A stretch of 64,000 nt of DNA from Adenophora triphylla var. japonica (lineage: Eukaryota; Streptophyta; Magnoliopsida; Asterales; Campanulaceae): assembly GCA_022495995.1 (NCBI GenBank), contig JAFEMH010002574.1:248001-312000 (forward strand). The letters are read 5' to 3'. Below, piece after piece: positions 17,115 through 47,480 of this stretch. Both the position numbers and the translations under genes were made by a program. The number at the start of each line of letters is the position of its first letter. Positions within the stretch are counted from its first letter, which is position 1. The notes under the pieces were generated by a model that did not search any database, was not told the DNA's origin, and was given only the letters and a program-made list of their open reading frames with translations.

Positions 17115-17115
17115 C

Positions 17116-19516: not shown

Positions 19517-20751
19517 TGTAAGTACCCCAATCTGGATCACTCCCCATCCGACACACGGGAAATACCTCAAACTCACACAAACATGATCTCGAACACCCGT
19601 AGCCTTCAAAAACCCCAAAAACCACCAACTAAGCAAAGGGGGGCTTTCTGGGATAAAAAAGTACAAAAGGACTTTTTAGGAATTTTGGAAAATTTGGAAA
19701 AGCAGGATTGGTCCGTACGGACCACTTTCCATTTCAGACATAATTATGACAAAATCCTCTTAAAGTCCACATTATTCTCCTAAATCCAGGAAAACCAAAA
19801 AATGGGTAATGGCTGCCAGTGTCGTGCGACATAGTTAGCCAGAATCTGGACCCTATAAATAGAGGGCTCCCCCCCCCTAATATTTTTCACACCTCCTCTC
19901 TTCTCTCTCTCCCTCTAGCCTTCAGGCACCCCTCTAAGACCCTTCGAGGCAATCCCGGTCCCTTTTGATTCCCTCCGGGGCATTTTGAGGCCCCTCGTGG
20001 TACTCCGAAGCCCTACCGAGTACCTAGCGCTCCAGAGATGCTCCCGAGCTGCCCCGAGGCACTCCCGAGGCATCCTGAAGCCTGCCAATCCATCCCGAAG
20101 CCTTACCGGTCCATCCCGAGGCATTCCGGTCCATCCCGAGTTATCCCGGCCCATTCTGAGCACAACCAACAATCCCAACGCACGCCGAACCTCTGTCCGA
20201 GCGCAACCGACGATCCCAATGCACGTCAAAACTCTGCTCGAGTACACACCTGACAATCCCGAGGCACGTCGAAGATCTATCCGCAGACACCGGTACATCC
20301 CGAAGCAATCCCGATCTGTCCCGGAACACTATTCAACACGCAAACACTATTCCCAAGCGGAAGACAGACACGAACCAACATTGGTAAGGCTTCCTTCCCT
20401 TACTATTTCAATACATAGTACACAATTTAGACATCATATACAACATGCATTTTTAAAAGCACATACACACACACACACACAACAGTTAAAGAAAAAGGGG
20501 TACCGAAAGACTCGTTTTTACAAGGCGACTCGGGTGAGCTCTGCTATTCTCTTCCCGAGGCATAACCTAACCTCCGAACTCAAAAATCTCATCACACAAC
20601 AACAGTTTTTTTTAAACTAAGCCTTTTTTCAATGTTTTGGGCTAAATCAAAATGCTGTGGCGAATCTACAAACAAAAACGCAGCGAGATACCTCCTCGAC
20701 CAACGTGCGAGATAACAAGGCCCACGCGCGAGCCGGATCCGGGTAATTTCA
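19517..20751 (+). repeat. E4 5' LTR, 1235 bp
   Basis: It pairs with 48858-50080. After the TATA box it contains a GC-rich array of short units such as TCCCGAGGCA, TCCCGAAGC and CCGGTCCATCCCGAG (about 19930-20310), and an AC microsatellite near 20462. Open frames inside the LTR are not genes. Confidence 0.95.
19709..19862 (+). promoter_or_regulatory. E4 LTR promoter: two palindromes and TATA
   Basis: A perfect 16-bp palindrome TGGTCCGTACGGACCA (19709-19724) is followed by CACTTTCC. A second near-palindrome TGTCGTGCGACA lies at 19820-19831, about 20 bp before the TATA box CTATAAATAG (19853-19862). The first dyad recurs 5' of both antisense genes of this element. Confidence 0.75.
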
Positions 20752-20752
20752 G

Positions 20753-20771
20753 TTGGCGACTCTGCTGGGAA
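20753..20771 (+). other. E4 primer binding site
   Basis: TTGGCGACTCTGCTGGGAA begins one base after the LTR end. It is the Ogre/Tat type, with a C-to-T change relative to the E5 site. Confidence 0.8.
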
Positions 20772-22049
20772 AGTTTTGTTTTAAAAACTTTTATACAAAA
20801 AAAAAGATTTTTAAAACAATGATGAGGGGCAAACTTTCATTTTACCCCCTTCTTTAACTGTTGTGTGTGTGTGCATGTGCTTTACTTTTTATTTACAAAA
20901 AAAAATAAAAATACAAAAAAATGCATCATAATACATCTGTGTACATACATTTAAAAATTCTGCAAAACTTTCTGTTTTACTCAGAAAAAGAATTTTAGCG
21001 ACCGCACAATACTCGCACTGCTGCCTCGGTACACCGCACGCTACCGCACTTGCTGCCTCGGTACACTGCACACTACAACCCTCAACCCGGAGAGGCCTCA
21101 GTTGCAGTCCGATTGGTCTTCCTGACGCCTTTCAGATGCGCAAGGGATCATTCCAAACATCCCATCCTAGCCAGTGTCAACCATGCACGCTTGCATCACA
21201 CTCTATCCAGACTCGATTGGTTTTTACCCAGTCCGTGTCTTACAGCCTGGATACATATCCCATGACGGCCATTTTCTGAGTCGAAGCACGGAACTCAAGA
21301 TCCCTTGCGCAAGCACAGCGATGAAAGGTCATGCTAAAATCTTGAGCCGATCTTGATTTCCAAAGCTACACCCAGACGATGTTCCGTCCCGGATATACAT
21401 CCATGCCCACATGACACCATGTCATCAAGCCTTTAATACGTCGGCCATGACAATATGACCTAGCCAATGCCTAACGTCACAGATCCCTTGCGCAAGCAAG
21501 GTAAAGAGAGGTCATGCCAAACTCTCGACTCGATCTTGACTCAGGTGTCGGCTCGGCTTACTATTCACATGGATAACGCATTAAAACGAACATGACAGGC
21601 TCGGTCCTTAGGTTCGATTTCTCTCTTAGGCCGGTGGAAACCGCTTGCCCTATAGGACCCTCGTACGGGGCTGTCCACCTTGGGATGTCGAAATACAGGT
21701 ACAAAACGAAGGGCTTATGGCCGCACAGATGGTCTCCACTGACCCAGGATCTAGCATAGTTGTGAAAAAGAAGAACAATCTTTTCCAACCAACTTAGGAT
21801 TCTGAGAAAACACGTTTTAAGTAAATTAAAACAATAAAAAAACATAAATAAATAAAAAATGGAAACTGCATGTTACATTAGCTTACCCCCTTTATCCAAA
21901 AGGTCCTTCCCATGTCTAAACCTTACCCATCACCCCCTCCAGCGAACCGAGAGTGATTGAGAGTACCCGGGAACTGTTCTTCCAGTGTCAAAGCCGCAAG
22001 GTCCCACATCCTTCCGAGTACAACCACCAGGGCAGTCCATCAACTCCCC
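20772..22049 (+). other. E4 5' leader
   Basis: Non-coding. It shares blocks with the leaders of E5 and E8: the doubled GCTGCCTCGGTACAC at about 21017-21070, CTTGCGCAAG palindromes near 21304 and 21487, and a polypurine-like CGAAGGGCTTATGG near 21706. Sharing across LTR families suggests function, for example packaging or translation control (inference). Confidence 0.6.
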
Positions 22050-24416
22050 ATGGCTAGGTCGGCAGACAACAATGAAGAAAACGGAATCTTACCCCCGAGA
22101 AATTTCCCGACAATGGAGGAAGTTTGGTAAGCTGTCATGGCCCTCGAAAAATGCCAAGGCAAGCAACAGGCCTGGATCGAAGGTGCCATGCATCATTTTG
22201 AAACATTAGCCACTCCCCAACCACCTGGGGCTCCCAAGGACGTACCCGCTCCAGCAGCTCATAACATCTCTCATTGTCTCCCGGAATTCAACCTTTTGCC
22301 CTCGTATGAGCCCTGCAGCTATGACATAAAGCCACAAGACCCCCTGGGGAAAGACGTACCCGGTCAATGTCCGGAAGTCCCAATACCACCTCAAAATGAT
22401 GAACACTTCTGGTGAGACATCTGTGATTGCACCACTTGTCTGGAAAAGGATTTCCAAGATGAAATAAACGAGGATCGCCCTCCAAGAAAAAAGAAACTCT
22501 CTTCTCAACAAAAATTGAAAAAGAGATACGAAGCCGGTGACCCCACAGTCGGAACCCTTGGAGAATCGTCAGGAAAGTTTGACTACTACGTCATCTACTC
22601 CAGCAAATCTCCTCAGCCTAGCTCTACGCAAGACCACGGCAACTTCTGCTCCATGATTAGCTGGGACGAAATCCGCACAGCCACCAACGGCCCAAGAGTC
22701 CTAATGCCCCAACCCCTATCTTGGGAAGACATCAAAGCCACCGTTGACACTTCAAAAGCAATAACGGTGAACGAGCTAAAATGCGAAGCATGGCCCTACG
22801 CCAAACAAGGCCCTCCCATGACAGAAATGGGAGAAACAAGCAAAGCAGTAAAGCCAGAGGTGAACGTATTGACGCGTTTCGGTCAAATCCAGGTGAATCC
22901 TCCAAGAACAAATAAAAGGCCAGCCGTGCCTGAACCTCGAATCGAAAAGGGCCCCTACGCCAAAGAAGCTGAAGCACTTGACCCAAAGGCTGAAGATCCA
23001 ATCTTAACTCAGCTCAAGCGCACTCAGGCCAACATATCCCTCTGGTCCCTACTCACTTCCTCTTACCCGCACAAACTCAAGCTGGAGCAAAGCTTGGCTC
23101 AGACCATGGTACCTATCAACGTGACATCAGATGAAGCGGTCCAAATGATTGGCAACGTCCACTACAGCAACATCATCACTTTCACAGAGCTCGACCTCCC
23201 ATAATTTAGGGCTGACCACAACGAGCCTCTCTACATAATAGTCCAACTGGATGAGCGCCGCCTCCCTCGAGTCTTGGTAGATGGGGGATCAGCCAAGAAT
23301 GTCCTCCCATCCAAAATGATGGATTTGCTAGGGATCAAGCCAACTGATCTAAAACCCTCAACTTAGACGATCAAAGCATACGACTCAACGTCTTGCTCAG
23401 TCTTAGGGATAGCCACTCTGAACCTGTGGTTCGGAAAACAGATGATCCCGACGGACTTCCAGGTCATCGACATCCCGATCATATTCACTGCCATCTTGGG
23501 ATGCCCTTGGCTACACCAGATCAATGGGGTGGCATCCACCCTACACCAATCTGTAAAGTTCGTCTAAGGAGCGGATCTCACCATCATATATGGGGACAGC
23601 ATAACTACTGAAGGGACCAACACAAACGGCGTCCCAGTCTTGGAAATCAAACACGACAACGACGGCATGATGCTGACAGGGTTCACAGTCGAAAGCCCAA
23701 AAGCCCAGGTATGCCACATAGACCTGCCCTTGACTTGGGATCGGATCCCTCCTACCATGAAGATGATGAAGCTCATGAACTACATCCCGGGGCTTGGTTT
23801 GGGGAAACACCATCAAGGTACCCAACAAATCATCGAGGTCAAGGAATAAAATACCCGCCATGGCCTAGGATACATTCTCACTCCCAAAGACGCTGCAGAA
23901 AACAGAAAAGCTGCACGAAAATGCTTCGCTACTGACAAAAGAGGCTTGCACGAAATCTCCGACCTCCGCCCTTACAGCTTTGACATGGCCCGGTACTTCA
24001 CAAAGAAAGCCAGCAGTTTGAATGAAGACACAGAGAAGGGGACAGAGCTGATTAACGCCAAACAAAACTGGTCGACATCAATGGACAAGCTCCAATAAAG
24101 CCTGGAAAGGTTCAGAGGCCTCGAGCCAAACCTAGTCAGAAGAGCATTTCTCGACGCACCAACTCTACTGGGACCCACTACCACTGCCATTCACAATGAA
24201 TTCTGGTTCGGGAAAACCTCCTCTTTGGCGGAAGAACTCGAGAAGCTCTTTGTCAGCACCCCCGCCACACACAAGCGGGATGAGTCAGCATTCGAACTAG
24301 CAATGCCCAAGACAAGAACGGAAGACTACGCAGAGAATGCCTGGAATGAGCCATTGCTCCACCAACTCTTCAGTGAAGAAATCGAGGTGCCAGACCTAAT
24401 CGATTTTGCTTTCTGA
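22050..24416 (+). pseudogene. E4 shortened gag and protease frame
   Basis: One frame with several stops (TAA about 22128, TGA about 22413, TAA about 23202, TAG about 23365, TAA about 23566 and others). It starts MARSADNNEENG, keeps the gag N-terminal coil (EKCQGKQQAWIEGAMHHFE), then jumps directly to the post-gag linker (DICDCTTCLEKDFQDEI, KKRYEAGDPTVGTLGE). The gag core and knuckle are missing. The aspartic protease follows: LYIIVQLDERRLPRVLVDGG and SAKNVLPSKMMDLLGI, with the active site as D-G-G rather than D-S/T-G, then ILGCPWLHQINGVASTLHQ. After it comes a linker ending DLIDFAF. Confidence 0.8.
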
Positions 24417-25118: not shown

Positions 25119-25521
25119 TGTAAGTACCCAAATACGGATCATCAAAATCCGTTAGAAGTTAACCGAAATCCGTTAACTGGCCCTTTCCAAGTTAACCGGA
25201 ACCCGTTAAACTCCCCGTTCTCAAGCCAACGAGACGTCCCGAGACTGCCCCGTGCATCCCAACGTCAAAGCGTACTCAACACACGTTATCACACGTAAAA
25301 GTACAGCTTTTCCCGAAAAACACACTTTCCGGCACTTTCCGGAGGCATTTCGGATATTTTCCGGACAGTTATTTAAAAAATAGATAAAATCGGGAATAAC
25401 GAGACGAAAACCCTAGCCTAGGTGAGTCACAGGGGCACGTGGCATGCATGCCAATGCCCTCCAATCAACATCAATCAAATTCCAAGGTGAAAAGACCAAA
25501 ATACCCCTGAGATTGAATGAC

Positions 25522-25654
25522 TGTCCGGCCGAACTGTTTTACCTGAAAAACCAGAATTGCCAACAAGTCCCCCAATTTTCCAATATACCAAAAAACCTCC
25601 CCAAATTGAAGAAGAGTCCGTCCGAACTGTTTTGCAAATTCACCCTATGAATAC
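25522..25654 (+). promoter_or_regulatory. E5 LTR dyads and TATA
   Basis: TGTCCGGCCGAAC at 25522-25534 and AGTCCGTCCGAACT at 25615-25628 are weakened versions of the E8 palindromes AGTCCGGCCGGACT and AGTCCGTCCGGACT. The TATA box is CTATGAATAC (25645-25654) here and CTATAAATAC in the 3' LTR. Confidence 0.6.
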
Positions 25655-26015
25655 AAGGGCTGTCAAACATTTCAAAAAAAAAAGAAAAACATGATCCCTC
25701 TTCACAAAACCCCACGGTCCAAACCAGTTCTAACCCTTCCTGAGCCCCATTTTGTCTTGATTTGCGTGAAAACCTCATTTTTCGACCAAACATGAACCAA
25801 ACAAACTCAAAACACCCTTTCAAATACCAAACCATATCCCATATACGTCAAACGAGCCAAAGGGTCAACCCTTATCCATAGGTAACACTCTCTCTCTCTC
25901 TAAACACTCGTTTTGCCTCGATTTACCCCAAGATCATCTTCTCTCCCGTAAGAGAAGTAATCTCGGGTTAAAACGGCATTCCGTCCCCGTTCTTTACGTT
26001 TATGTTATTTACAGT

Positions 26016-26640
26016 CTAGATCGTATGATCCGTTGATTCGCAACTTTACAGTCCGAACCGTTTGGTTCGTGATAGTCATTTAAAAAAAAATTCGGATCGT
26101 TTGATCCGTCAATATTGTCATTTAAATTATGCACCTTTACAAGTCCGAGTCGTTTGGCTCGTCGATCGCATCTTTAATGTCCGGATCGTTTGATTCCGTC
26201 GATACCGTATTTTAAATACTGTCATTTACAAGTCCGAGCCGTTTGGCTTGTGATAGTATTTATTTATCAAAGTTCGAGTCGCAAAACGACTCGTTGATCG
26301 CATCTCATTTAATGCCTTTTTTCATAAAATCACTAACAATGCAATGCCCGGTTCAAAACCGGAGTTCGTCATTCGAGCTCCTTTTCAAAACGCGCAAAAG
26401 TGACGTTTGGCATCCAAAAGATCATTTTTAAAACTCAAAACCCGACGTTTGACATTCAAAGGCTCTTTTCTTAAAAGTCAACGTTTGACACTCAAGCTAA
26501 AGACTCAAATTCGTAACTCGTACCTTTTTCCTAAAAAACCCCAAAACCAACGTTTGTCATTCAAACGCTCGCTTTTTCCAGAAATCATAAAATCAACGTT
26601 TGACATTCAAACCAAGATTAAGCTTGTCATTCAAGCCCCC
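26016..26640 (+). repeat. Array of short hairpins in E5 LTR
   Basis: At least six units have arms of 5-7 bp around a GTTT-type loop, for example CGAACCGTTTGGTTCG (26054-26069), CGGATCGTTTGATCCG (26093-26108), CGAGTCGTTTGGCTCG (26146-26161), at 26182-26198 and 26235-26250; one at 26275-26293 has CAAAA in the loop. They are followed by hairpins with a five-base loop such as CGTTTGTCATTCAAACG. Spacers are about 30-50 bp. The array lies downstream of the TATA box, so it should be in the transcript. Confidence 0.75.
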
Positions 26641-26787
26641 CTTTTCAAAAAATACAACACACACGCACACAATTTCGAGAAAGGTAGAAAGACTCGTCAT
26701 ACGAGGCATTTCGAGTGATCTCAACATACTCTTCCCGAAACGTAACGTGACCTCTGAACCTAACAATCTCTGGTCCTAAAAAGCCAT

Positions 26788-26960
26788 TTCCAAAGTTGGG
26801 CTCAAAATACAAAACGACACATTTTCAAAGCCATTTCCAATGTTTGGGCTCAAAATACAAAACGACACATTTTCAAAGCCATTTCCAAAGTTTGGGCTCA
26901 TAATACAAAACGATACATTTTTCAAAGCCATTCTCAACGTTTGGGCTCAAAATACAAAAC
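26788..26960 (+). repeat. 48-bp tandem repeat near E5 LTR end
   Basis: About four copies of a unit containing AAAGCCATTTCCAAAGTTTG and GGCTCAAAATACAAAACGA. The 3' LTR has the same array at 38429-38612. Confidence 0.85.
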
Positions 26961-27061
26961 CGCGTGGCGACTCCTCTCCTTCCCGAAATCGAGGTTCCAA
27001 ACCCGCGAAAGAAAACCGCTCACCGCGCCTTCCCGCACGCGCGCGATCCCGGGTAATTTCA

Positions 27062-27081
27062 CTTGGCGACTCCGCTGGGGA
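27062..27081 (+). other. E5 primer binding site
   Basis: CTTGGCGACTCCGCTGGGGA directly follows the LTR. It is the best match in the window to the Ogre/Tat primer site. Confidence 0.85.
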
Positions 27082-28368
27082 CAAGGATACTTTTTCAAAA
27101 CTGCCGTCGTTTCAAAAAGCATTCTGTGGGTCAAACTTTCGTTTACCCTTCCTCGTTTTTGTGAGTGTGTGTTGTTCAAAACATCGAATGGTTTTTTTTG
27201 AAGCAAGAAAAAATGTGTTGCATTTTCATCCAAAATCATAACATATTCATGCATTCCCGTTCATACTTGATTTTCATGCCATATTTTGAACTGCGCATAA
27301 ATTCTTTAAAACACATCTTGAAAATCTCTATTTTACTCAGAAAAGAATTTAGTGACCTCACACTACTTGCACTGCTGCCTCGGTACACCGCATGCTACGC
27401 GCACTTGCTGCCTCGGTACACTGCACACTACGACCCGTAACCCAGGATGACCGTTCAGTTGCAGCTCGATTGGTCTGTCAGACACCTTTCGAGCACGTAC
27501 GGGGTCGTCCCAAATAGCCCATCCTAGTCCATGTAAGTCATGCACTCTTTGTGTCACACTTCGTCCAAGACCCCGATTGGTTTTTAGCTTAGTACGTGTC
27601 ATAAAGCCTAAGTGTATGTTTTTTACGCCGGTTTCCCTCACAAGTCAAACTTAAAAGTTAAGACCGAAGGTCGTTCCCGACCCGAAGTCTTTAGCTTTTC
27701 AGCCTTGACTTTGACGCGGAGCCATGCCAAAAAACATACCCGAAGGTTCAAAGTGACACCGTGTCACTAAACCCTCAACATATGCACCATACCAGCCACA
27801 GCTTGGCCAACGCCAAAAGCTAAGGCCCCTCGCGCAAGCGAGTCAAGAGAGGTCATGCCGAAATTTCAGCACGATTTCTGCCTTAACTTAAGAACGTTGA
27901 CTTCGCTCGTGGCCCACGTGTCACATACGTTGTAAGTTTGCGTGACCAGCTAGCCTTAAGTTCACTTTTTTCCTTTGTCGGTGGAACTCACTTGCCTTAT
28001 AAGACCCTCGCTCGGGATTGTCCATCCCGGGAAGACGATTTACAGGTGAAAAACGAGGGGCTTATTAACGTAGTGACGAGATCCATTGATTAGAGCCTTA
28101 GGTTAGTTGCAAAAAAGAAGACACGATCTTTTCCAACCAATTAGGACTCTGAGAAAATACGTTTTAAGTAAACATTAATCGGTAACTGCACATTGCACTA
28201 GCCCAAAACCCTGAGCCAAATACCCTTTCCGAAGCCTAAACCCTGCCTTTCATTCCCTCCAGCGAGTAGAAAGTGGTTCAGAATTTCGGGCCGCCGCCGC
28301 AGTCACAGCATAACAAAGATCGCGACAGGTTCTTCGGTTCCCTCGGTTCCTTCGACGGACTCTCCGAT
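27082..28368 (+). other. E5 5' leader
   Basis: No gene. It shares with E4 and E8 the doubled GCTGCCTCGGTACAC block (27374-27425), a hairpin CTCGCGCAAGCGAG near 27828, and a polypurine-like CGAGGGGCTTAT near 28054. Confidence 0.65.
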
Positions 28369-29341
28369 ATGTCAAGCTCACCGAGAAATCGTGACGGAAC
28401 GGAACCCCACCACCGTAATGTATATGACATTGGAAGAAGCCATCCGGGCCTGTGAGGTTCACAAAAGGCAGAAAGAAGATCAGCAGAATTTCGTGGTACA
28501 GCTTCTGAATGAGCGAGGTATAGCAGCTATCCCCCAGCCAGACGGTACCTTTGTCCTGATCGAGGACGATGAGCCTTCCCGATCAATTCCTCAAACCTTC
28601 AACCAGGTTCCTCCCCCGCCAACTTACGGATTCCTTCGAACCAAGGAAACAGCCGACCCAGGCTTCATGTTGCCACCTCTCAAGGCACCCCTATCATATA
28701 CGGCCAAGCCAGTACTACTCCCATCACTCAGTATAACCAGTGCACCGCTGGACCATCTCAAACAGATGTCAATATCCTCCAATACCCTCTCAGGATCAAC
28801 CCATTGCCTATACACGAACCTCAAAACACCGGGGACAAACCCCGATACAGTCCAGAAAAGGTCCCCATATATCCACATATATCAAGCCTCCCACCTCCAA
28901 TTACTGCCGCTCATATGGCAGCACCCGGCATCGAGCCTCAAAGTCCACCACTGGACCCAGCCCTAGCCTAGATGGTCGAATAGATGAAAGACTTGAAGGC
29001 CAGTATAAGCTGCTCAAAGCAAGAAACACTCAGATCCACAGATCCGGGAATGGTCACGCCTCTCCCTGCCAAGTTCAGAATGCCGGAAATGGATCGATTC
29101 GACGGTACCGAATGTCCACAGACACATGTTGACACCTACGTTCTCGGCATGAGAGCGAAAGGAGCAACCCTTCAGCAAATGGCCGATCACTTCCAGCATA
29201 CGCTCAAGAGTTCAGCGTTACGATGGTTCCTAAGGGTCAAGCCTACAGATCGCCATACCTGGGATCAGATCAGCAATATCTTCCTAGAGCGGTATAGATC
29301 CAACCTAGAGTGGGAAACAAGTCGTGAGGACTTAATCACCA
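28369..29341 (+). pseudogene. gag: E5 gag, N-terminal part and core start
   Basis: The start MSSSPRNRDG matches the E8 gag start. A frameshift near 28405 leads to MTLEEAIRACEVHKRQKE, a coil like that of E8. A Pro-rich linker, another frameshift near 28960, then the gag core: PLPAKFRMPEMDRFDGTEC, THVDTYVLGMRAKGATLQQM, SSALRWFLRVKP, WDQISNIFLERYRSN. It stops at 29341, inside the segment SREDLIT, where S1 is inserted. Confidence 0.85.
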
Positions 29342-30955: not shown

Positions 30956-30960
30956 CACCA

Positions 30961-32743: not shown

Positions 32744-32756
32744 GGAATGAAGCCGA

Positions 32757-35501: not shown

Positions 35502-36350
35502 GTGAAGGAGGACCCGATCCTCACTCAGCTCAAGCAGACCCAGGCGAACATTTCCCTTTGGTCCCTGCTCACATCTTCATACCCTCACAAGCTCAAGCTA
35601 GAGGAAAGTTTGGCCCGCACCATAGTCCCCGTGGACGCAACTCCAGACGAAGTAATTCAGATGATCAGCAACATCCACTACGTCAATATCATCACCTTCA
35701 CAGATTTGGACCTGCCAAAATTTGGGGCTGATCACAATGAGCCGCTCTACATCACAGTTCAGCTGGACGAGCGTCGCCTTCCCCGTGTATTGGTAGACGG
35801 AGATTCCGAAATGAATGTCTTGCCCGCCAAGATGATGGACCTGCTTGACATCAAACCCACAAATTTGAAGCCTTCAGTCCACACTGTCAAGGCCTATGAC
35901 TCCACTTCCCGCACAGTTCTCGGGGTTGCTACTCTAAATATCTGGTTCGGCAAGCGGATGATCCCCACCGAATTCCAAGTGTTGGACATTCCTATCACTT
36001 TCACATCCATCCTGGGGCGACGCTGGTTGCATCAAATGAATGGCGTGGCATCCACCCTTCATCAGTGTATCAAGTTCATGCAAGGCAACGAGCTAACAAC
36101 AGTCTATGGCGACAGCGTCACCACCGAGGGGACCAACACCAACGGCATTCCAGTGTTAGAGATCAAGCATTATGATGATATGGCATTAACCGGATTCACC
36201 TTGGAGACCTCCAAGATCCAAATATGTAGCGTGGACCTTCCACTGTTTTGGGACAAAATCCCTCTCGTCATGAAGATGATGAAACTCATGAACTTCATCC
36301 CAGATTTGGGGCTCGAAGGTTGCAAGGCTAACACCAATTCATCGAAGTCA
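35502..36350 (+). CDS. E5 protease 2 (open frame fragment)
   Basis: It reads DPILTQLKQTQANISLWSLL, then LYITVQLDERRLPRVLVDGD with SEMNVLPAKMMDLL, then SILGRRWLHQMNGVASTLHQ. This is a second aspartic-protease fold in the same element, close to the E4 protease. Its active site is D-G-D instead of D-S/T-G, so catalysis is doubtful. The frame stays open to 36668, but the true continuation shifts near 36350. Confidence 0.85.
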
Positions 36351-36730
36351 AGGACCACACTACAGTCCAGGGGCTCGGTTATGTGCCAACACCAGCTGAT
36401 ATCAAAGAAAATAAAAGGCTCGCCAGCACCAAGGCAGCAGCCCGCAAAAGGGGAACCTCCAACGGCACACCGAACCTCCAACCTTACAGTTTCGACCTCG
36501 CTCAATACTTCATCAAGGGAACCGACAGCAGAACTGAGGGAACCGACAGCAGAACTGAGAGAACCGACAAGGAAACCGATAGCAGCACTGAGGGAATCGA
36601 CAGCAGAACTGAGGGGACCGAATGTGAAACTGATGAAGATGAGAAAGAAGCAGGGAAAGTCAGCTTAGAGACTACAGAAAGGATGGGAAATCTAGCACAG
36701 GACTTCAAGCATTTCAGAGGACTCAAAGCT
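36351..36730 (+). pseudogene. E5 pol linker with 21-bp repeat, ends at deletion
   Basis: In the shifted frame: TPADIKENKRLASTKAAARK, YSFDLAQYFIKG, then repeated GTDSRTE units, then LAQDFKHFRGLKA. E4 has the matching YSFDMARYF and ERFRGLEPNL, after which it continues to RT. In E5 the sequence jumps into the LTR at 36731. Confidence 0.8.
36519..36625 (+). repeat. 21-bp minisatellite in pol linker
   Basis: About five units of GAACCGACAGCAGAACTGAGG, coding repeated GTDSRTE. It is absent at the same place in E4, so it expanded after the two diverged. Confidence 0.85.
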
Positions 36731-38695
36731 AATCCGTTAACTGGCCCTTTCCAGGTTAACCGGAACCCGTTAAACTCCTCGTTCTCAAGTCAACGAGACG
36801 TCCCGGGACTGCCCCGTGCATCCCAATGTCAAAGTGTACTCAACACACATTATCACACGTAAAAGTACAGCTTTTCCCGAAAAATGCACTTTCCGGCACT
36901 TTCCGAGGGCGTTTCGGACATTTTCCGGACAGTTATTTAAAAAAGGGACAAAATCGGGAATAACGGTAGAAAACCCTAGCCTAGGTGAGTCACAGGGGCA
37001 CGTGGCACGCATGACAATGCCCTCCAATCAACATCAATCAAATTCCAAGGTGAAAAGACCAAAATACCCCTGAGATTGAATGATTGTCCGACCGGATTGT
37101 TTTGTCTGAAAAACCAGAATTGCCAACAAGTCACCCAATTTTCCAAAATACCAAAAAACCTCCCCAAATTGAAGAAGAGTTTGTTCGTACTGTTTTGCAT
37201 ATTCACCCTATAAATACAAGGGTTGTCAAACATTTCAAAAAAAAAAGAAAAACATAATCCCTCTTCATAAAACCCCACGGTCCAAACCAGTTCTAACCCT
37301 TCCCAAGCCCCGTTTTGTCTCGATTTGCATGAAAACCTCGTTTTCCGACCAAACACGAACCAAACAAACTCAAAACACCCTTTCAAATACCAAACCGTAT
37401 CCCATATATGTCAAACGAGTCAAAGAGTCAACCCCTAGCCATAGGTAACACTCACTCTATCTCTCTCTAAACACTCGTTTTGCCTCAATTTACGCGTCAA
37501 ACACTATAATCGTTCCGGTCAAAATCATTGAAATGTAGACGTAACGCCGTCTACGGGGTCCGATACATTTTACCCCAAGATCATCTTATCTCCCGTAAGA
37601 GAAGTAATCTCGAGTTAAAACGACGTTCCGGCCCCATTCTTTACGTTTATGTTATTAACAGTCCGGATCGTTTGATCCATTGATTCGCAACTTTACAGTC
37701 CGAACCGTTTGGTTCGTGATAGTCATTTACAAAAATCCGGATCGTTTGATCCGTCGATATTGTCATTTAAATTACGCATCTTTACAAGTCCGAGCCATTT
37801 GGCTCGTCGATCGCATCTTTAATGTCCGGATTGTTTGATTTCGTCGATACCGCATTTTAAATACTGTCATTTACAAGTCCGAGCCGTTTGGCTTGTGATA
37901 GTATTTATTTATCGAAGTCCGAGTTGCAAAACGACTCGTTGATTGCATCTCATTTAATGCCTTTTTTCATAAAATCGCTAACAATGTAATGCCCGGTTCA
38001 AAATCGGAGTTCGTCATTCGAGCTCCTTTTCAAAACGCGCAAAAGTGACGTTTGGCATCCAAACGATCATTTTTAAAACTCAAAACCCGATGTTTGACAT
38101 TCAAACGCTCTTTTCTTAAAAGTCAACGTTTGACACTCAAGCTAAAGACTCAAATTCGTAACTCGCACCTTTTTCCTATAAAACCCCAAAATTGACGTTT
38201 GTCATTCAAACGCTCGCTTTTTCCAGAATCATAAAATCAACGTTTGACATTCAAACCAAATTAAGCTTGTCATTCAAGCCCCTCTTTTCAAAAAATGCAA
38301 CACACACACACACGCACACAATTTTGAGAAAGGTAGAAAGACTCGTCATATGAGGCGTTTCGGGTGATCTCAACATACTCTTCCCGAAACGTAACGTGAC
38401 CTCCGAACCTAACAATCTCTGGTCCTAAAAAGCCATTTCCAAAGTTTGGGCTCAAAATACAAAACGACACATTTTCAAAGCCATTTCCAAAGTTTGGGCT
38501 CAAAATACAAAACGACACATTTTCAAAGCCATTTCCAAAGTTTGGGCTCATAATACAAAACGATACATTTTTCAAAGCCATTCTCAACGTTTGGGCTCAA
38601 AATACAAAACCGTGTGGCGACTCCTCTCCTTCCCAAAAGCGAGGTCCCAAACCCGCGAAAGAAAACCGATTGCCGCGCGATCCCGGGTAATTTCA
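36731..38695 (+). repeat. E5 3' LTR, 5' end missing
   Basis: It starts at the base matching 25167 of the 5' LTR, so the first 48 bp including the TG terminus are lost. Compared with the 5' LTR it also has about 70 bp extra near 37500-37570 (a segment also present in E8). TATA is at 37208-37217. Confidence 0.92.
37661..38285 (+). repeat. Hairpin array in E5 3' LTR
   Basis: The same array as in the 5' LTR. Some arms that are broken there are intact here (GGATCGTTTGATCC near 37665) and the reverse. Confidence 0.75.
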
Positions 38696-39860
38696 GTCGA
38701 ATCAAGCCAGAATGGTCTTTACAAGTCAAGGAAGAGATTGAAAAGATGCTCCGCGTCGGATTCATAAGGGTGATCGAATACCCGACATGGCTATCCAACA
38801 TAGTCACGGTCACCAAGGCCAGCGGAAAAGTACGCTGTTGCGTGGACTTCCGAGACCTCAACAAAGCAAGTCCCAAGGACGACTTTCCACTACCAAACAT
38901 AGACATGTTGGTAGACACTATGGCCAATTTCGAGGTTAAGTCCTTCGTGGACGGGTTCGTCGGCTACAATCAAATCAAGATGGCTGAAGAAGACCAAGAA
39001 AAAATAGCCTTCACAACCCCCTGGGGAACCTACTGCTACACAGTGATGTCGTTCAGACTAAAGAACGCTGGGGCTACCTACCAACGGGCAGCAACCGCCC
39101 TATTCCACGACATGATCCACAAAGATATCGAAGTGTATGTCGATGATATGATTATCCACTCAAAGGGATCAGATGGACAACACCTCATTGACTTGAGAAA
39201 GTTCTTCAATCGACTCTGGAAACACTCAATGAGGTTAAACCCTGACAAATGCACATTTGGAGTCATCCGAGGCAAAGTCTTAGGATATATGGTCACCGAG
39301 AGAGGCATCGAAGTTGATCCCTAAAAGATCAAGGCCATAATCGAAATGAGACCACCGCAAACCCAAACAGAGGTAAAAAGCTTCATGGGCCGCCTGCAGT
39401 ACATCAGCCGCTTCGTCAATCAGTTGACCTCCATGTGCGAGCCAATCTTCAGACTAATGAACAAAAATGCAGACATCGAATGGAACCCGAAATGCCAAGA
39501 TGCCTTTGAAAAGATAAAGGCATACCTTATGAGTCCTTCGATCCTCTGTCCTCTCCACGAGGAAAAGCCACTTTTGTTATACCTAACTGTGACTGAGACC
39601 GCAGTTGGAGCCATGCTCTGTCAAGAAAAGAAAGAGTCACGAGTTGAGAACATCATCTACTTCGTCAGTCGAAAGTTTCAAGGCAGGAACTCAACTACTC
39701 AGCCCTCGAGAAAACCTGTGCAGCTCTAGTATGGGTTGTCGGAAAACTACGACACTACATGCAGTCGCACACAGTGCACTTGGTCTCTAGAATGGACCCA
39801 GTCAAATACCTCTTCTACAAACCATCTCTGTCAATGAGGCTGCCAAATGGTCTTTCTTCC
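38696..39860 (+). pseudogene. E4 reverse transcriptase and RNase H
   Basis: RT resumes after E5: IKPEWSLQVKEEIEKMLRVG, CCVDFRDLNKASPKDDFPLP, SFVDGFVGYNQIKM (catalytic Asp), VMSFRLKNAGATYQ, EVYVDDMIIHSK (YVDD box), LGYMVTERGIEVDP, a TAA at 39322, then the connection (SFMGRLQYISRFV) and RNase H (LLLYLTVTETAVGAML, a decayed form of the usual LYLAVSE.A..). A frameshift near 39685 is followed by ELNYSALEKTCAALVW, and another occurs near 39848. One stop and two frameshifts break an otherwise complete domain set. Confidence 0.92.
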
Positions 39861-41770
39861 TAGCGGAGTTTGACATCAAGTACGTGAACCAGAAGTCAAT
39901 CAAGGGACGGGTAATGGCCGAGCAACTGGCCGACTTCCCAACCGATGAGGCCCAAGGTCCCGAGCCACAATTTCCAGACGAAGGAATCTTCACACTTGAA
40001 GGCAAAAACCGATGGCAACTGTTCTTCGACAGAGCAACCAACAAAAGAGGAAACGGCATTGGTATGCTCTTGGTCGACCCAAAGGACGAGCACACCCCAA
40101 TCGCCATAAAGATGAATTTCTAGGTAACCAATAATGCCGCCGAATACGAAGCTTGCGCCACCGGACTAGAGGCCGTACTTGAAAGGAACGTCCAGAAACT
40201 CGAAGCCTACAGGGCCTCAACCCTAATCATCAATCAAGTTTCCAACAAGTGGAAAACAATAGACCCAGGCTTGCAAAAGTACCACGCCTGCATGGAAGAC
40301 CTCATCACGCAATTCAATGAGGTCACTTTCCACTACTTGCCAAGAGACCGGAACCGGTTTGTAGAAGCCCTAGCCACCTTGGCTTCACTTGTGGAAATCC
40401 CCGAGGGGAAGGCAATCAAGCCTTTCAAAGTCGAAAGGAAGGAAATCCCTGCCTACTGCTGGGAGATCGAACCAGAACCTGAGCCCATCAATGAGCCGTG
40501 GTACAACCAGATCTTCCAATACCTTAAGAACGGGGAAACCGCCTTCATGAACGAGGAAGGCCAACGCAAAGAAGGAATCAAAGCCAAGAGCATCAAGGCC
40601 CTAAAACGCCTTGCCTCTCACTTTGTCATCATTGGAGACATGTTATACAAAAAATGCTACCAAGGACCGCTCCTACGCTGCATCAGCCAGGAAAAAGCAA
40701 ACGAGCTCATGAACGAAGTCCACAATGGGGCTTGCGGCCCCCACATGAACGCCAGAGCCCTGAAGCAGATCATTCTTCGAATGGGCTACTACTGGATCTC
40801 CATGGAGGCAGACTGCATCCACTTTGTCCAAAGCTGCGACAAGTGCCAAAGATTCTCCAACCTCAATCATCTACCTCCTCACGATCTCTGCTGTATGAAT
40901 ACTCCCTGGCCCTTCGCCACTTGGGGAATCAACGTCATCGGGAAAATCGCTCCACCCGGAAGCAACGACCATGAATTCGTCTTGGTAGTCATCGACTACT
41001 TCACAAAATGGGTCGAAGCCAAGTCCTACAAGGTGCTAACTTCCAGGAAGGTCGCACATTTCCTCAAGGAAAACATCATATGCCGATATGGCATCCTGAA
41101 CGAGGTCATATCAGACAACGGGTCCCACTTCGAAGGAGAATGCGACAGACTGCTGGCCGAATTCAAGATCACACGCCACAAGTCTTCTCCCTACAGGCCA
41201 CAAAAAAACGGCGCAGTAGAAGCAGCAAACAAGACCCTCGAAAGGATCATCCAAAAAATGACCACAAGAGGGCGAGATTGGCCTGAGAAGCTGCACCTTA
41301 CAATTTGGGGCTACCGAACATCAGTCAGAACAGCCACAGGAGAAACTCCATTCGCCCTAACATATGGGATGGAAGCAGTACTGCCCATTGAGTTGGAAAT
41401 TCCCTCACTCCGAGTGTTGTTGGAAAACGAGATCAACGAAGTCGAATGGCTCTGAAGCCGACACGACGAACTGGCTCTGCTAGACGAGCGCCGACTAAAG
41501 TCCATGGAGCACATCCGAGCCTACCAAAGCAGAATGGCTAGAGCCTTCGACAAGAAAGTCAAGTCCCGAGATATCAGGGAAGGCGATCTGGTACTCAAAG
41601 AAAAGCCTCCCACTCGAACCAACCCACTGGGAAAATGGGAACCAACATGGATCGGCCCTTTTGTGGTTCAAAAGATCTTCTCCGGAGGTGCCATAAAGCT
41701 GACAGAACTAGACGGCAATCCCTTCATGAATCCAGTCAACGGAAGCAAACTTCACAGATACTTCGCCTAA
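39861..41770 (+). pseudogene. E4 second RNase H (archaeal type) and integrase
   Basis: One frame with two stops (TAG at 40121, TGA at 41453). The second RNase H shows LFFDRATNKRGNGIGMLLVD and NNAAEYEACATGLEAVLERN. The integrase has the HHCC finger (HNGACGPHMNARALKQ ... CDKCQRF), the catalytic core (WGINVIGKIAPP, VVIDYFTKWVEA with Asp, SDNGSHFEGE with Asp, PYRPQKNGAVEAANKTLERI with Glu) and a C-terminal domain (REGDLVLKEKP, GKWEPTWIGPFVV) ending KLHRYFA. No chromodomain is seen, as expected for Tat. Both stops fit a C-to-T change in a Gln or Arg codon. Confidence 0.93.
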
Positions 41771-42560: not shown

Positions 42561-42564
42561 ATAC

Positions 42565-43981
42565 TTAGGAGGTCATTCCACACCACCCGCGCTTGTCCCC
42601 TCGCCATTCTTCCCTTTCTTCCCTCTTCCCCCGGCGAGTCTTCTTTCGCTCCACGTGAGCCAACTCTGTCTCTCTCATTCCGAGATTTGGGGTCCTCCCC
42701 GTAGAGTCAAACAATCCAGCAGCTCGCAGAGCTTCATTCGTCCGTGCCTTGGCCCGAATCTCCTCCCTACAAGTTTGCAAAAGAGGACCTCTCTCCGTCA
42801 GTCGGTCAACTCGAGTCTCGTAGTCAAATAAGGCGTCTCCTATCACATCTTCGGCACTTCTAAGGCTATAGCTGGGACGGTAACCTTGCCCCAGAATTGC
42901 TTCACGCATGCTTCCCAAAATCACTTGGGACTGCCTGACATGCTGCTCGTACCAATCCAGGTACTCGGTGGTCAACACAACACTCTCCCGACATCGAAGG
43001 AGCACCACAGGAGGGAAAGCGGAATACTTCCACACCCTCAGAAAATACAGAAGAGCACCTGAAGCGACGGAATATAGAAGGAGGACCAAGACAAACCTGG
43101 AACTCTGACGACATAGGAACCTTCCTAAAAGGCCCTCCTAGTCTCAATCCCCCAGTGCGGAACCCACCAGCAAATCTGATGCGTACTAAGTTGTGCCATC
43201 CATCTCTCCCAGGCGGACTGGTCCATATCCAATACAAGAGGTCGCCAAGCAAACGTCCACGGGCTAAAAGACGTCGGAGACTCAAGCATGGCTTAAAGCC
43301 TCTCTCGCAACCACAAGGTGAGCAAAACGGGGCTTCCCCCTCTCATGAACCTATCCCCGGTCGCCAGGCGATCAATGCCATGTAGTGTTTCTCCCAGCAC
43401 CAATGGAGCAATATCCTCCCTGACTCGGCAGTGCCCTACTACATCTAGCAAAGCGCCGTCACATACCCCAAGGGAGTTAGCCATGAAAAGCGTCGCTATC
43501 ACGCATAAAGCAAAGGCATCCCACGAGACGTCACTCTCGTCATCACTCATAAACCGCGCGCAGAAATGTCAATGTGACCAGAATCAAATGTCATACCCTG
43601 CACTTCTTCCAATGAAGTCCGAAGAAAGCATGCGAGCTTCACGCTAATAGCTGCAGCGCCAATCAAAGGAAGCGAAATGGCCTCCATCTCCGATCCTCCA
43701 GTCAAAGCCCGAAAATCCTCAAAGGTGGGCATCACTTCATTGTAGGAGAAGCTATACATGTGCCTCCTAACATCCCAAAACTTCGCAGCAGCCCGCAACA
43801 ATTCCCAATCAGGAACTAACTCCCTAAGGGACCAAACCGAGCAGAGTCGAAATCTCACCCCGAAAGCTTGCTTGTTGTGCCTCATATGGTGCCTTATCCA
43901 CGTATTGAGCCACTCAAGGAAGTATGCTCGCCTCTCCTTCGAAAGCCTCGGCAAAACTCTTGAAACAAATGAAAAATCCAT
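42565..43981 (-). pseudogene. E4 antisense gene B: plant-mobile-domain-like protein
   Basis: Start at 43981 (MDFSFVSRVLPRLSKERRAY), the Met nearest 3' of the promoter dyads; an upstream Met at 44173 lies beyond them. The first 145 codons are open: WSLRELVPDWELLRAAAKFW, MYSFSYNEVMPTFEDFRALT (the PMD-type pattern W..(8-10)F.F..GE..PT..D...L.G). After a frameshift at about 43550: DGALLDVVGHCRVREDIAPL, then RWMAQLSTHQICWW and SWSSFYIPSLQVL. A last frame to 42565 gives WLDWYEQHVRQ-like and KKTRRGKREEREEW, a basic tail. Family by pattern only; role unknown, perhaps DNA-associated. Confidence 0.65.
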
Positions 43982-44096: not shown

Positions 44097-44143
44097 GAAT
44101 CCGCACGGACCACTTTGCATGCTAGATGGGTCCGTTCGGACCA
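44097..44143 (-). promoter_or_regulatory. Dyad pair 5' of antisense gene B
   Basis: Two copies in the same orientation: ATCCGCACGGACCACTTTGC (44098-44117) and GGTCCGTTCGGACCACTTTGC from about 44129. They lie 115-160 bp before the gene B start and are the same motif as GGTCCGTACGGACCACTTTCC in the LTR. The pair is also repeated before gene A. Confidence 0.75.
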
Positions 44144-44638
44144 CTTTGCAACATGGCCCCACATTTTTAGCAAATTGCAAAACAGCTATTGCTCTCAGCG
44201 GGACCCTACCTCCAACTACTCAAAAGCCTGGCCAAAGTCATTTTTGGCCACCCTACGCTAACCACAAATGCATTCCCAGCTCATGCGATATGCACAAAAA
44301 ATAATAAACTAGCAACAATTCCTAGGTCAATCCCGAGAATCACAAATACATCATTACATCTCAAATAAAATAGTTTGATGTACAAATACAAGTGTTTTAT
44401 TACAGGTACAAAATATCTGTGGCAAAACAAAAAAAAACGGAAAGAGGGAAAGCAAAAGAGCCCTAATCCGACTCATCATCATCCTCCAGAAACGAGAAAT
44501 ATGGCATCTCGACAAACTCGCCAGTCACACCCTCATCATCGGAATACTGGACCCCCTCATTATGCGAGTACTCAAGTACTCCGAAGGATCAAACCCAGTA
44601 AAAGGATTAAAGAAGGGATGTGCAGACGAACCCTCTCC
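44144..44638. other. Spacer between antisense genes A and B
   Basis: No domain seen. It should hold the 3' UTR of gene A and the distal promoter of gene B. There is a run with TCATCATCCTCCAG near 44475, which may be an eroded acidic coding tail of gene A beyond its stop. Confidence 0.4.
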
Positions 44639-47249
44639 CTATACATCCGGCGGAGGAAATAACTGATGAAGGGTCTGCGGCCTCTGAGCCCCCGAAGACG
44701 TACCTGCATCAAAACTCTGCCGCTCCTGAACCGGCACCTCAGGTTGTGGCCCTGGCTCAGCCCTCAATGAAGGAGTATCCACAGACCTCCTCGAAGGCAT
44801 TGGCTCGAACGCTGCCGCGCGCCGCGAAGACCTGCAAGACAGCTTCCCCGCGAGCTTCTTTGCAAAAGACCTCATCCCCACAAACCGATGGGTCAGCGTA
44901 TCAAAGGATATCCTCGAGACCTGCGTAAGCAAACAACCAAAGAAATGCTCAGCTAAGGAGATACAATCATACTCGACAAAAGAAAAAAAAATACAGAAAA
45001 GATGCCAAGATGGAGAAGAGTAAGCACACTCACCGGAGCATTCGGGTCAACCCGATAAGCAGCAGGAGCCTGCTCTGGGATGGGCACCGACACCCTCCTC
45101 GAAGAGTCCCCGCGGACATACGTGAAGTTCGGCCCAGGCACCGAAACATCTGGGGGACGTGGTGGGCCATCCTGCCTCTCCCTCACCAACACCTATGGCG
45201 TCCTCGTATTTAGCCTAACAAAGGCCCTATACTCCTCGCCATACAGGATGAACTCCTCGGCACTCACACCGCCCAGGTACCTCTCGTACTCCAGCACGTC
45301 CATGTCACAAGAATTCATCATACCGAAGGGCGGATCCCTCGGAGCCATAGGGGGTTCGCCTGTGCCATGCTACCAGAAGACCCTCTCCCCCAGATACATG
45401 ACATCACAAGTAAGGCCCCGCAGCATCTTCCTCTGCCGTGTCACCGCAGGAGCACCCTCAAAATGCTAGACTATCCCTCTCCAGGTACTCCTGCACGTCC
45501 CTGTAGGCGACAGTGACCTTTCCCCTAGCAGTCCTCCTCCTCCTCAACGGGCGAGCCCAGCACAGCATGGCGGGATAGGCCACCGTGGCCACATCTGCCC
45601 AGTCCCACGGCTGGCATCGAAAGATCTCATAGCACCACACCTGCAACAAAAAACCAGAGAGTGCTCAGAACAAAAAAGAAGACGGAGAAATGGCAAAGTG
45701 CTAAACTACAACAGCAATAAACTCATACCTCCAGTGCAAAATTGAAGCATCCCAGGGAACTGGCCGTGCCCCGGCTAATCCTGTCCATAGCAAAATAAAG
45801 CTCGGCCAAGCTTGCCTCGCCCCAAGCAATCTCACAAACCCTCTCCTAGTCCTCCAAACTCTCTAGCAGAGGGAAAAGAGCGGTAGAGGCATGATTCGAG
45901 AACAAAGTCTCGAAAAGAGCAAACCACAGGAAGGAGCGCGCCAGCTGCTCAGCCGTCACTACTCCAGTGCCCCCGCGATAAGCCCCGATATTATCCGTAA
46001 GATGTGCCTCCACATCGCTGTACAACATGCCCAAGCCCTTACGAGGATAGGGCGCAAATCCCAGCAACTCAGCCAGCACCCCATCCGACATCCCATCCCG
46101 CCATCTCACCGGTCCCCCTTTGAAGGAAAGCCCGGTGATCGCCGCAAAATCGGTAGGGGTCATCGTCACCTCTCCCCAGCTAAAATGGAAGGTATACGTG
46201 GTGTCCCACCATTACTCAGACAGAGCCAAGAAGACGCCCTTGTTCTTCTGCGTCTCCGCTATCCAGGCCAAGTTCTCCACGAGCACACCCAAACCAGAAT
46301 CGAAGACCAACCTCTTAGGACTTGGTCTACCCTCACGGGAGTTCTCCGGCAGGTTCTACCACAACTCAACTACGTCCTCAAGCGACCCCTGAGACTTCAT
46401 CTTTTTTGCCTTCCCGGACGAAGTCACCTCATCCTGCACTTAAACACAGCAAAGGTATGTCAATAACAGAACTTAAGCAAATATACAAAACATAAAAGAC
46501 CGTCCCAACACAGCAAAAGCATAAAAGGCCTGTCACAAAAACACGGCACGCACTACATGACACATTCTCAACGAGAACCCGTTCACAACAACACGACACC
46601 CATGTCCCATTTTCAAACAAAAGACCGTTTACAAAAACACGGCACACATTGCACATAAATTTTCCCACACAATGTCTGTCCCTACACGGCACACACTTTC
46701 ACACAAAGTCCATCCCTACACGGCACACACTTTCAGACAAAATCTGTCACAAAAACACGGCACATGTCACACTTTTCATACAAATTCCGTCCCTACACGG
46801 CAATTTTTTCACAAAGTACATACGGAAATAGCATAAGGTACAAATCACCAAAGCATGCATTTCAAAAGAGATGCACTTTATTTTTACAAATAAGAGCTAA
46901 TCTCCACTTTTTTTCACAAAAATCACATACCCACAATTCTTACATGCTCAATTTCAACAATTCAACATAAATTTCACAAAATGAGCATGACAACAACAAA
47001 AGCCCCAAATTGCGAAAACTAAGACCTAGTTCTAGCATACAACATTTCAAGCAAGAATCAAAGCAAAATTTAATTTCTTACCTCCCTTACAGTCCTCCCC
47101 CGCAAGTTATGCACCTCAAAATCTGGATACAACACATCCGGATTCTTTGTTGAAGGAACAAAGGAAGAGCGATTCCTTTGAAGCTCCAATCTCCTATCCA
47201 TGGCCTCTTGGCCCCTTTGACGACGACCTCGTCTAATTCTTTCCACCAT
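44639..47249 (-). pseudogene. E4 antisense gene A: spliced plant-mobile-domain gene, four exons
   Basis: Exon 1 47249-47082 (MVERIRRGRRQRGQEAMDRR, 56 codons), exon 2 46433-45729 (235 codons), exon 3 45640-45034, exon 4 44920-44639. Introns start GTAAGA, GTATGA and GTGAGT and end GCAG; exons 1, 2 and 4 are whole codons, and exon 3 has one extra base near 45467. Exon 2 shows WWDTTYTFHFSWGEVTMTPT with DFAAITGL, the PMD signature, and VTAEQLARSFLWFALF; exon 3 starts VWCYEIFRCQPWDW; exon 4 is Arg/Ser/Pro-rich. About 586 residues. Stops at 46356, 46212, 45846, 45370 and 45193. PMD proteins include MAIN/MAIL1, linked to silencing control in plants; an element role is inferred. Confidence 0.7.
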
Positions 47250-47306
47250 TATAGCAATTCAAGCAACCGGAAAGAATTCCCTCAAGAAATTTTTGAACAA
47301 AATCAA

Positions 47307-47311
<5 letters not shown>

Positions 47312-47346
<35 letters not shown>

Positions 47347-47480
47347 GTTCGACAGAAGGTGGAATGGTGAGGAATGACGTTGCTGAAGCCAGGTTTGGAT
47401 TTTGGGAAAATCAAATCCCCACAACAATCCGCACGGACCACTTTGCAAGGCAAGTGGATCCGTGCGGACCACTTTGCATT
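47312..47480 (-). promoter_or_regulatory. Promoter region of antisense gene A
   Basis: On the minus strand: two dyads, complement of ATCCGCACGGACCACTTTGC (47428-47447) and GGATCCGTGCGGACCACTTTGC (from 47456), then a GA microsatellite (complement of CT at 47312-47344) in the probable 5' UTR, then the ATG at 47249. The dyads are about 180-220 bp before the start. Confidence 0.7.

Follow-up and report, generated by a model that had tools for sequence, protein, structure and literature searches.

Why should a plant retrotransposon carry one short, partly palindromic site both in its long terminal repeat (LTR) and before two genes that run against it? The question is raised by element E4, which lies in a 64,000-nucleotide stretch of the Adenophora triphylla var. 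japonica genome (assembly GCA_022495995.1, contig JAFEMH010002574.1, positions 248,001 to 312,000; hereafter the window) and contains two antisense genes, A and B. We found that the site occurs once in each LTR and twice, at the same spacing, before each antisense gene. It is conserved in relatives of E4 in the host genome, and it changes in concert at the three promoters. An initial annotation of the window had proposed a common factor for sense and antisense transcription; a sequence-specific factor of this kind is now well supported by the conservation and co-variation of the sites. It is plausible that this factor is the element's own product with a PMD domain (PF10536).

Six copies of one site in E4

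The LTRs, the antisense genes and the six sites are listed below by their positions in the window.

19517 to 20751, plus strand: E4 5' LTR, with ends TGTAAGTACCC...GGGTAATTTCA and the target-site repeat ATCTC at 19512-19516
19710 to 19731, plus strand: LTR site GGTCCGTACGGACCACTTTCCA, a perfect dyad, about 140 bp before the TATA box at 19854
42565 to 43981, minus strand: antisense gene B, with a weak DUF7745 / PMD-like match; the frame is broken in the E4 copy
44098 to 44119, plus strand: site B1 AATCCGCACGGACCACTTTGCA, upstream of antisense gene B
44129 to 44150, plus strand: site B2 GGTCCGTTCGGACCACTTTGCA, 31 bp from B1
44463 to 47247, minus strand: antisense gene A, with a PMD (PF10536) exon piece at 45849-46211 and an acidic/aromatic C-terminal tail at 44463-44588
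47426 to 47447, plus strand: site A1 AATCCGCACGGACCACTTTGCA, upstream of antisense gene A
47457 to 47478, plus strand: site A2 GATCCGTGCGGACCACTTTGCA, 31 bp from A1
48858 to 50080, plus strand: E4 3' LTR, with the target-site repeat ATCTC at 50081-50085
49050 to 49071, plus strand: 3' LTR site GGTCTGTATGGACCACTTTGCA, the dyad decayed at two CpG

The shared site can be written as RRTCCG-NN-CGGACC plus a one-sided ACTTTGCA, with one copy per LTR and one pair before each antisense gene. Its constant part is TCCG-NN-CGGACC + ACTTTGCA, with small departures in both LTR copies: the flank reads ACTTTCCA in the 5' LTR, and the 3' LTR has TCTG-NN-TGGACC. The pairs are spaced equally before both antisense genes (44098/44129 and 47426/47457), and the gene-proximal member of each pair is AATCCGCACGGACC. 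The copy at 49050 reads GGTCTGTATGGACC, with two CpG-type changes. Compared with the 5' LTR, the 3' LTR dyad (49050-49063) thus carries two transitions of the kind expected of methylated, ageing LTRs.

The initial annotation had placed a shared dyad in the LTR and before genes A and B. The places were correct, and so was the claim that the sharing includes a flank beyond the palindrome. The pattern as it was typed (GGTCCNNCGGACC), one G short, has no match in the window, and the palindrome holds at two of the six sites (19710 and 44129), the other four having no perfect 14-bp dyad. Five sites had been named; the 3' LTR copy and the 31-bp spacing had been overlooked. The reverse orientation relative to the antisense genes was confirmed, all six sites being on the plus strand. 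The flank therefore faces the sense start in the LTR and points away from the antisense coding starts.

The sites stand out clearly from the background of the window. Exact CGGACCACTTT was found at 19718, 44106, 44137, 47434 and 47465, and with one mismatch at 49058. With up to two mismatches, GGTCCGNNCGGACC gave 10 matches in the window, compared with 0.95 +/- 0.95 in 100 shuffles (largest 3). A 24-column matrix scored the six E4 sites at 35.8-38.3 bits, and the next place in the window, on the reverse strand of A2, at 16.6 bits. The mean maximum of 30 mononucleotide shuffles was 9.6 bits and the largest 14.8 bits. Each of the ten TCCGNNCGGA words found in the window belongs to an LTR or an antisense promoter of E4 or a related element. 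Chance origin of the sites is ruled out by these shuffle and matrix controls and by the reversed-pattern control in the genome described below.

Conservation of the site among relatives of E4

Relatives were fetched by the PMD piece with the site ignored; 150 of 40,738 candidates were scored, and 30 loci, one of them the window, were compared. Promoter A is covered by the alignment in fifteen of the 30, counting the window, and none of these has lost either A site, although some have decayed bases. Of the others, L047 retains A1 and breaks off short of A2, L041 and L043 stop short of the A sites, and in L040, L044, L053 and L056 the alignment is lost earlier (in L056, inside A1). The gene B promoter was retrieved from 13 relatives, 12 of which keep the pair. 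Fifteen 3' LTR stretches were fetched as well, including three (L069, L076 and L083) with no or too little LTR; the site is present with at most one mismatch in 11 of the 12 LTRs retrieved. Pairwise identity was 0.90 in the site columns vs 0.78 in the 60-bp flanks for promoter A (15 sequences), and 0.90 vs 0.80 for promoter B (13 sequences).

Relatives of E4 differ in how far the A sites are from the LTR. In E4, short tandem repeats occupy 47940-48330, between gene A and the 3' LTR. In L030 (C9:920900-930800), about 4.8 kb with the LTR and the A promoter is tandemly doubled, sites included.

Coordinated change at the LTR and both antisense promoters

In one relative, hereafter the switched element (retrieved as L055 for promoter A, L074 for the LTR and L088 for promoter B), all six sites, two each in the LTR, A and B groups, have T instead of A at one and the same position. 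The sites read CGGACCTCTTTG, and its A1 reads CGGTCCTCTTTG. The PMD region of this element is 95.3% identical to that of L054 and 95.0% identical to that of L046, both of which have A at that position in all eight sites retrieved (five from L054 and three from L046, whose gene B promoter was not fetched). In 18 of 19 200-column windows its gene A lies nearer to L054 than to the other T-type clade, the exception being the one at 46665 (85 vs 86%), and the flanks of the switched A sites remain those of its own clade. Gene A of the switched element has the diagnostic base of the other T-type clade at 23 of 294 positions, with one cluster at the sites. E4 has such bases at 19 of 304 positions, so the scattered ones in the switched element mean little.

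A more distant subfamily, L032/L037, is about 78% identical to the E4 clade in the PMD region. Every site scored there, whether in the LTR, A or B, has the spacer TA; the flanks at the three promoters are mostly TCTTTG or TTxTTG, and two sites have ACTTTG. When 16 elements were compared, the share of T in the LTR followed that in the promoters (r 0.915, permutation p 0.002), as did spacer TA less closely (r 0.60, permutation p 0.02), with both p values made too small by kinship. In this set, a motif-like stretch of L049 overlapping an inserted LTR start was excluded, and the second LTR stretch of L060 (TGTGAA flank) was scored as T.

Variants of the site in the host genome

The host genome (2.48 Gb) was searched on both strands for exact matches, a procedure that misses decayed sites, with the reversed pattern as control. 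GGTCCGNNCGGACCACTTTGC had 525 copies, GTCCGNNCGGACCACTTTGCA had 1,145, and the TCTTTGC variant GTCCGNNCGGACCTCTTTGCA, the commonest, had 21,942, each vs 0 in the control. The AGTCCG...CGGACT variant, AGTCCGNNCGGACT, which is a palindrome and was counted once per place, had 14,415 copies vs 8. Nineteen of the first 20 GGTCCGNNCGGACCACTTTGC loci align to E4-like LTRs (about 66-85% identity) and one to a gene B promoter.

The first 100 TCTTTGC matches listed fall into 16 clusters of at least three, 7 pairs and 12 singles. Many of the clusters share the layout LTR-B-A-LTR, for example with LTR sites at 0/137, B at 10,968, A at 14,490/14,520 and LTR sites at 17,304/17,441. Words from the two genes point to the same layout. 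A splice-site word of gene A occurs at 2,978 genome places (control 0); on C1-C7, among the matches listed, 7 of 10 of these places have a TCTTTGC site as far away as A or B would be. A gene B word occurs at 2,950 places (control 0). Among the matches listed on C1-C8, a TCTTTGC site lies 437-441 bp away in 7 of 14 places, where about 0.009 would be expected and where the E4 distance is 437, and anywhere at element distance in 11 of 14.

The AGTCCG...CGGACT variant forms LTR pairs 91-93 bp apart, with single sites at A- and B-like distances as judged by position only. One example has sites at C1:202570 and C1:205763 before an LTR pair at 207776/207868; the gene A and gene B marker words have no match at this element. 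Two variants were read at all three promoters of individual elements, with exceptions given below, and the third by position only.

A search of collections outside the host genome found no relatives of the integrase. In a viral contig collection the site pattern had no match, and the paired site pattern occurred in 7 contigs. Two IMG/VR contigs, L022 and L024, have two CGGACCACTT pairs each, 162 bp apart, and are probably unrelated repeats. A genome-contig collection (257 Gb) gave a single site match, in an Acidobacteriales metagenome-assembled genome, which we take as chance since by our own estimate about 7 matches are expected for 18 fixed bases in 257 Gb.

The products of the antisense genes

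Gene A in the window matches PF10536 at 2.3e-10, above the Pfam cut-off. The E4 copy is broken by stops; an open PMD exon is present in many relatives, and L044 matches PF10536 at 3e-18. For gene B, the sole Pfam match in the window is DUF7745 at 0.0089, below the cut-off. In relative L097 gene B matches DUF7745 at 1.3e-4 and PMD at 0.0057, both below their cut-offs.

The acidic/aromatic tail of gene A is present in 22 of 27 copies and is common also to L032 of the distant subfamily. Tails with the full 50 residues have a net charge of -14 to -18 and 7-11 aromatics. Acidic activation domains combine strong acidity and aromatics in this way.

Upstream of the A sites, a block at 47489-47552 (TTTTGCCCTTATAATCTTTGCCCCTGGCTGTCCAAAGGCC) equals the sites in conservation, including in the distant subfamily, and contains a TATA-like word on the antisense strand (47505-47510).

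A proposed regulator encoded by the element

One specific regulator is favoured because the site is shared, well kept, partly palindromic, paired, and changing in concert at three promoters. Our proposal, towards which we lean slightly, is that a regulator encoded by the element, likely the PMD protein of gene A with or without the gene B protein, activates the LTR and both antisense promoters through the 22-bp site. The putative binding site would consist of a palindromic core, GTCCG-NN-CGGAC, and a one-sided TTTGCA arm. Acting in trans on the sense LTR and on antisense promoters A and B, the regulator would bind the dyad as a dimer, and the paired sites before each antisense gene would be about three helical turns apart.

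The sites, their spacing, their conservation and their coordinated change are shown here; we infer that such binding would take place, that the product of gene A and/or gene B would be the binder, and that it would activate rather than repress. An element-encoded regulator is preferred to a fixed host factor because three separate promoters switch together, as a co-inherited regulator would make them do. Gene A is the lead candidate because its PMD exon is open in many copies and its tail is conserved; the PMD-like gene B protein may act with it. An activator of the LTR and of its own production (positive feedback) is favoured because the gene A tail resembles acidic activation domains, and this tail would serve as the activation domain.

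A wider reading, which we hold tentatively and at somewhat less than even chance, is that antisense PMD-type regulators of plant Tat-clade retrotransposons, acting through one short site on the LTR promoter and on their own two promoters, have co-diversified with their sites (ACTTTGC, TCTTTGC and AGTCCG...CGGACT) into separate families, with elements like E5, described below, retaining the LTR site alone and riding along on it. Site and regulator would evolve together, so that each family would answer mainly to its own regulator.

Several observations weigh against the proposal. A Pfam profile search found a recognised DNA-binding domain in neither the gene A nor the gene B protein. Within the E4 clade, the full set of switched sites comes from a single element. 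The gene B of this element, at 89-90% identity to both groups, does not single out the binder. Its B pair, with the bases between, resembles the other T-type clade, possibly as a short exchanged tract. The kinship of the 16 elements counts here too. E4 itself breaks the spacer correlation, with TA in the LTR and CA, TG, CA and TT in the promoters; L032/L037 mixes ACTTTG, TCTTTG, TTATTG and TTCTTG sites; and LTR L002 has one T and one A site. The co-variation between LTR and antisense promoters for which the initial annotation had suggested looking is found in the host genome, with these exceptions. In the L059 element, the gene B promoter (L096) is unrelated sequence and the LTR (L077) has no site. 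In the LTR, copies of the E4 clade keep the site no better than its surroundings (identity 0.84 vs 0.86 in the flanks, 13 sequences), and promoter A has two other blocks that are conserved to the same degree as the sites.

Loss of the A sites also belongs on this side. A deletion covers them in 8 of the 30 loci (L042, L050, L051, L052, L057, L062, L063 and L067), and the gene A start is also gone in six of the eight. L050 and L052 keep the gene A start region and an open PMD exon. Copies with intact antisense genes lacking the dyad had been named by the initial annotation as the case that would speak against it; the outcome is mixed, with these two loci keeping gene A in the absence of its sites and the 15 aligned promoters all keeping both. 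The loci with deletions may be decaying copies, or may represent a lineage that has abandoned its antisense promoter.

Several of the A-site deletions share a right-hand end at about 47563-47583, and one pair ends at about 47485.

Alternative explanations

The site may instead be bound by a host factor that the element uses at all three promoters, the foremost candidate being a class II (CIN-type) TCP protein. LTRs are usually driven by host factors, and GGACCAC is present in all six E4 sites. In vitro, gGGaCCAC is the sequence selected by TCP4 (PMC2553836); GTGGNCCC, exploited by geminivirus promoters, is a binding sequence of class II TCPs (PMC11288445). In two other variants, however, GGACCAC is lost while the palindrome is kept: the TCTTTGC variant reads GGACCTC (21,942 copies) and the AGTCCG...CGGACT variant reads GGACTNN (14,415 copies), so that the GGACCAC / GTGGNCCC core that a class II TCP site should show in every functional copy is missing from both. 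A fixed host factor also leaves the joint switch of LTR, A and B in one lineage unexplained. TCP binding as the sole explanation fits the sites of the window, not the other variants, and is weakened accordingly; we consider the host-factor explanation unlikely.

The regulator could be the element's own and yet a repressor, serving copy-number control or silencing of the sense strand, by negative feedback or in the manner of a retroviral antisense protein. About 30 bp upstream of A2 comes the TATA-like word, present in 10 of 11 sequences among the rows listed. A1 and A2 would therefore sit at or after the transcription start, and the pair may cover it, which fits a repressor as well as an activator and is a further point against our proposal. 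The host PMD proteins MAIN and MAIL1 act in silencing (PMC7156037). On the other hand, the conserved tail of gene A resembles an activation domain, and about 140 bp upstream of the TATA box, where the LTR site lies, is a usual position for an activator. Repression seems to us rather improbable.

Likeness by descent or gene conversion would need no regulator at all: the antisense promoters would come from a piece of LTR, or the sites would have been homogenised. A short exchanged tract would give just the B pair seen in the switched element; the A and B pairs, which are 87% identical over 53 bp, may derive from one duplicated pair; and the match between A2 and the LTR in E4 extends a few bases past the site. 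Otherwise the likeness ends at the pair or the site, which weakens the idea that the antisense promoters are reversed LTR pieces. The flanks of the switched A sites stay those of their own clade, and the A and B site columns are better kept than their flanks despite containing CpG. We hold out little hope for this explanation.

That the palindrome acts in RNA, as a dimer linkage or packaging hairpin of genomic RNA, is very improbable: a self-complementary core present several times in the genomic RNA would suit such a role, but packaging needs neither the kept TTTGCA arm, nor the 31-bp spacing before both antisense genes, nor a place upstream of three coding regions.

Class of E4 and related elements in the window

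The coding region of E4 and two related elements are listed below.

38614 to 41770, plus strand: E4 pol, with reverse transcriptase, RVT_3-type RNase H (weak) and integrase, between nested E5 and the antisense genes
25119 to 38695, plus strand: nested element E5, inside E4, whose LTRs have a decayed related dyad of GTCCGNCCGRACTGTTTTGCA type at matching LTR places
59153 to 59258, plus strand: LTR dyad pair of related element E6, AGTCCGGCCGGACT at 59153 and AGTCCGTCCGGACT at 59245, repeated at 60027 and 60119

The two LTRs of E4 are 87.9% identical. In E4 pol, Pfam gave RVT_1 (7e-21) and then a weak RVT_3 (0.0036) immediately before H2C2 and rve, the RVT_3 and rve matches both being below their cut-offs. 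An extra RNase H preceding the integrase, with reverse transcriptase before integrase, is a trait of the Tat clade (Ogre/Retand) (PMC6317226). E4 has the paired LTRs with a target-site repeat and the extra open reading frame with a PMD (PF10536) that go with this clade. It would appear to be a long Ty3/gypsy LTR retrotransposon of the Tat clade (Ogre/Retand type) whose two antisense genes lie between pol and the 3' LTR.

Three open frames tested in E5 had no Pfam match. The E5-type variant GTCCGNNCGGACTGTTTTGCA has 115 genome copies vs 0 in the control; among the first 100 matches listed there are two pairs 13-15 kb apart and no A/B-like clusters. E5 may be non-autonomous, using the regulator of other elements.

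The E6 LTR start (58740-60495) is tandemly repeated, with a unit of about 880 bp and 92% identity, which gives four AGTCCGNNCGGACT dyads in a row. Two further LTR-like repeat pairs were seen in the window, 1-808/6505-7313 (95.8%) and 10431-11790/17116-18477 (98.3%); no dyad match is listed within 1-7313 or 10431-18477.

Comparison with known systems

If E4 does encode an activator of its own LTR and antisense promoters, its closest counterpart in way of working, by analogy, would be the foamy-virus protein Tas, which is sense-encoded. Tas binds and activates the LTR and an internal promoter (PMC4929722). Both cases involve a reverse-transcribing element that has an internal promoter beside the LTR; in foamy virus a single protein of its own binds the two, and in E4 the same site is present in the LTR and in the internal promoters of the candidate regulator genes A and B. 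E4 differs in having two antisense genes with their own promoters, PMD-type proteins as putative binders, and matching site variants per subfamily.

For the joint divergence of site and factor, the closest precedent, again by analogy, is VANC, named by the initial annotation. It belongs to the VANDALs, DNA transposons of the Mutator group. VANC proteins of Arabidopsis VANDALs recognise short noncoding motifs of their own family, which differ between related families and evolve with the protein (PMC5735166; PMC10398659). These motifs, such as YAGTATTAY, are found within tandem repeats, and the outcome is that DNA methylation is lost (PMC5735166; PMC10398659). Among the relatives of E4 the motif likewise differs along with the family. 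The analogy holds for sites and factor evolving together and does not extend to family membership: E4 is an LTR retrotransposon with a palindromic site plus an arm, few sites at three promoters, and PMD-type proteins, and its LTRs, reverse transcriptase and integrase rule it out as a VANDAL.

Antisense genes between pol and the 3' LTR, as in E4, are described for Retand (TRP28) and Grande (gene23); Grande gene23 has its own promoter, and a regulatory role has been proposed for such genes (PMC11963269; PMC7264820; PMC6317226; PMC9289625). PMD is reported in 57% of Ogre elements (PMC6317226). Antisense genes of plant retrotransposons are described as having no known function (PMC11963269; PMC7264820), and the function of PMD is called unknown (PMC9289625). 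In a literature search that took in few subscription journals, we found no report of a site shared between LTR and antisense promoter, or of its co-variation. HTLV-1, too, is an LTR element with a protein gene on the antisense strand, HBZ, which takes part in the life cycle; retroviral antisense genes, however, are driven from within the 3' LTR (PMC10186651), whereas the E4 genes appear to have internal promoters of their own.

The shared and jointly switching site turns a vague regulatory idea for antisense genes into one that is directly testable, and the site variants are ready-made swap controls. If the PMD protein is the binder, the result may bear on the role of MAIN and MAIL1 in silencing. 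If the wider reading is true, a molecular function would, to our knowledge, be known for the first time for a transposon PMD and for the antisense genes of plant retrotransposons, and the elements of one genome would be split into families, each answering to its own regulator.

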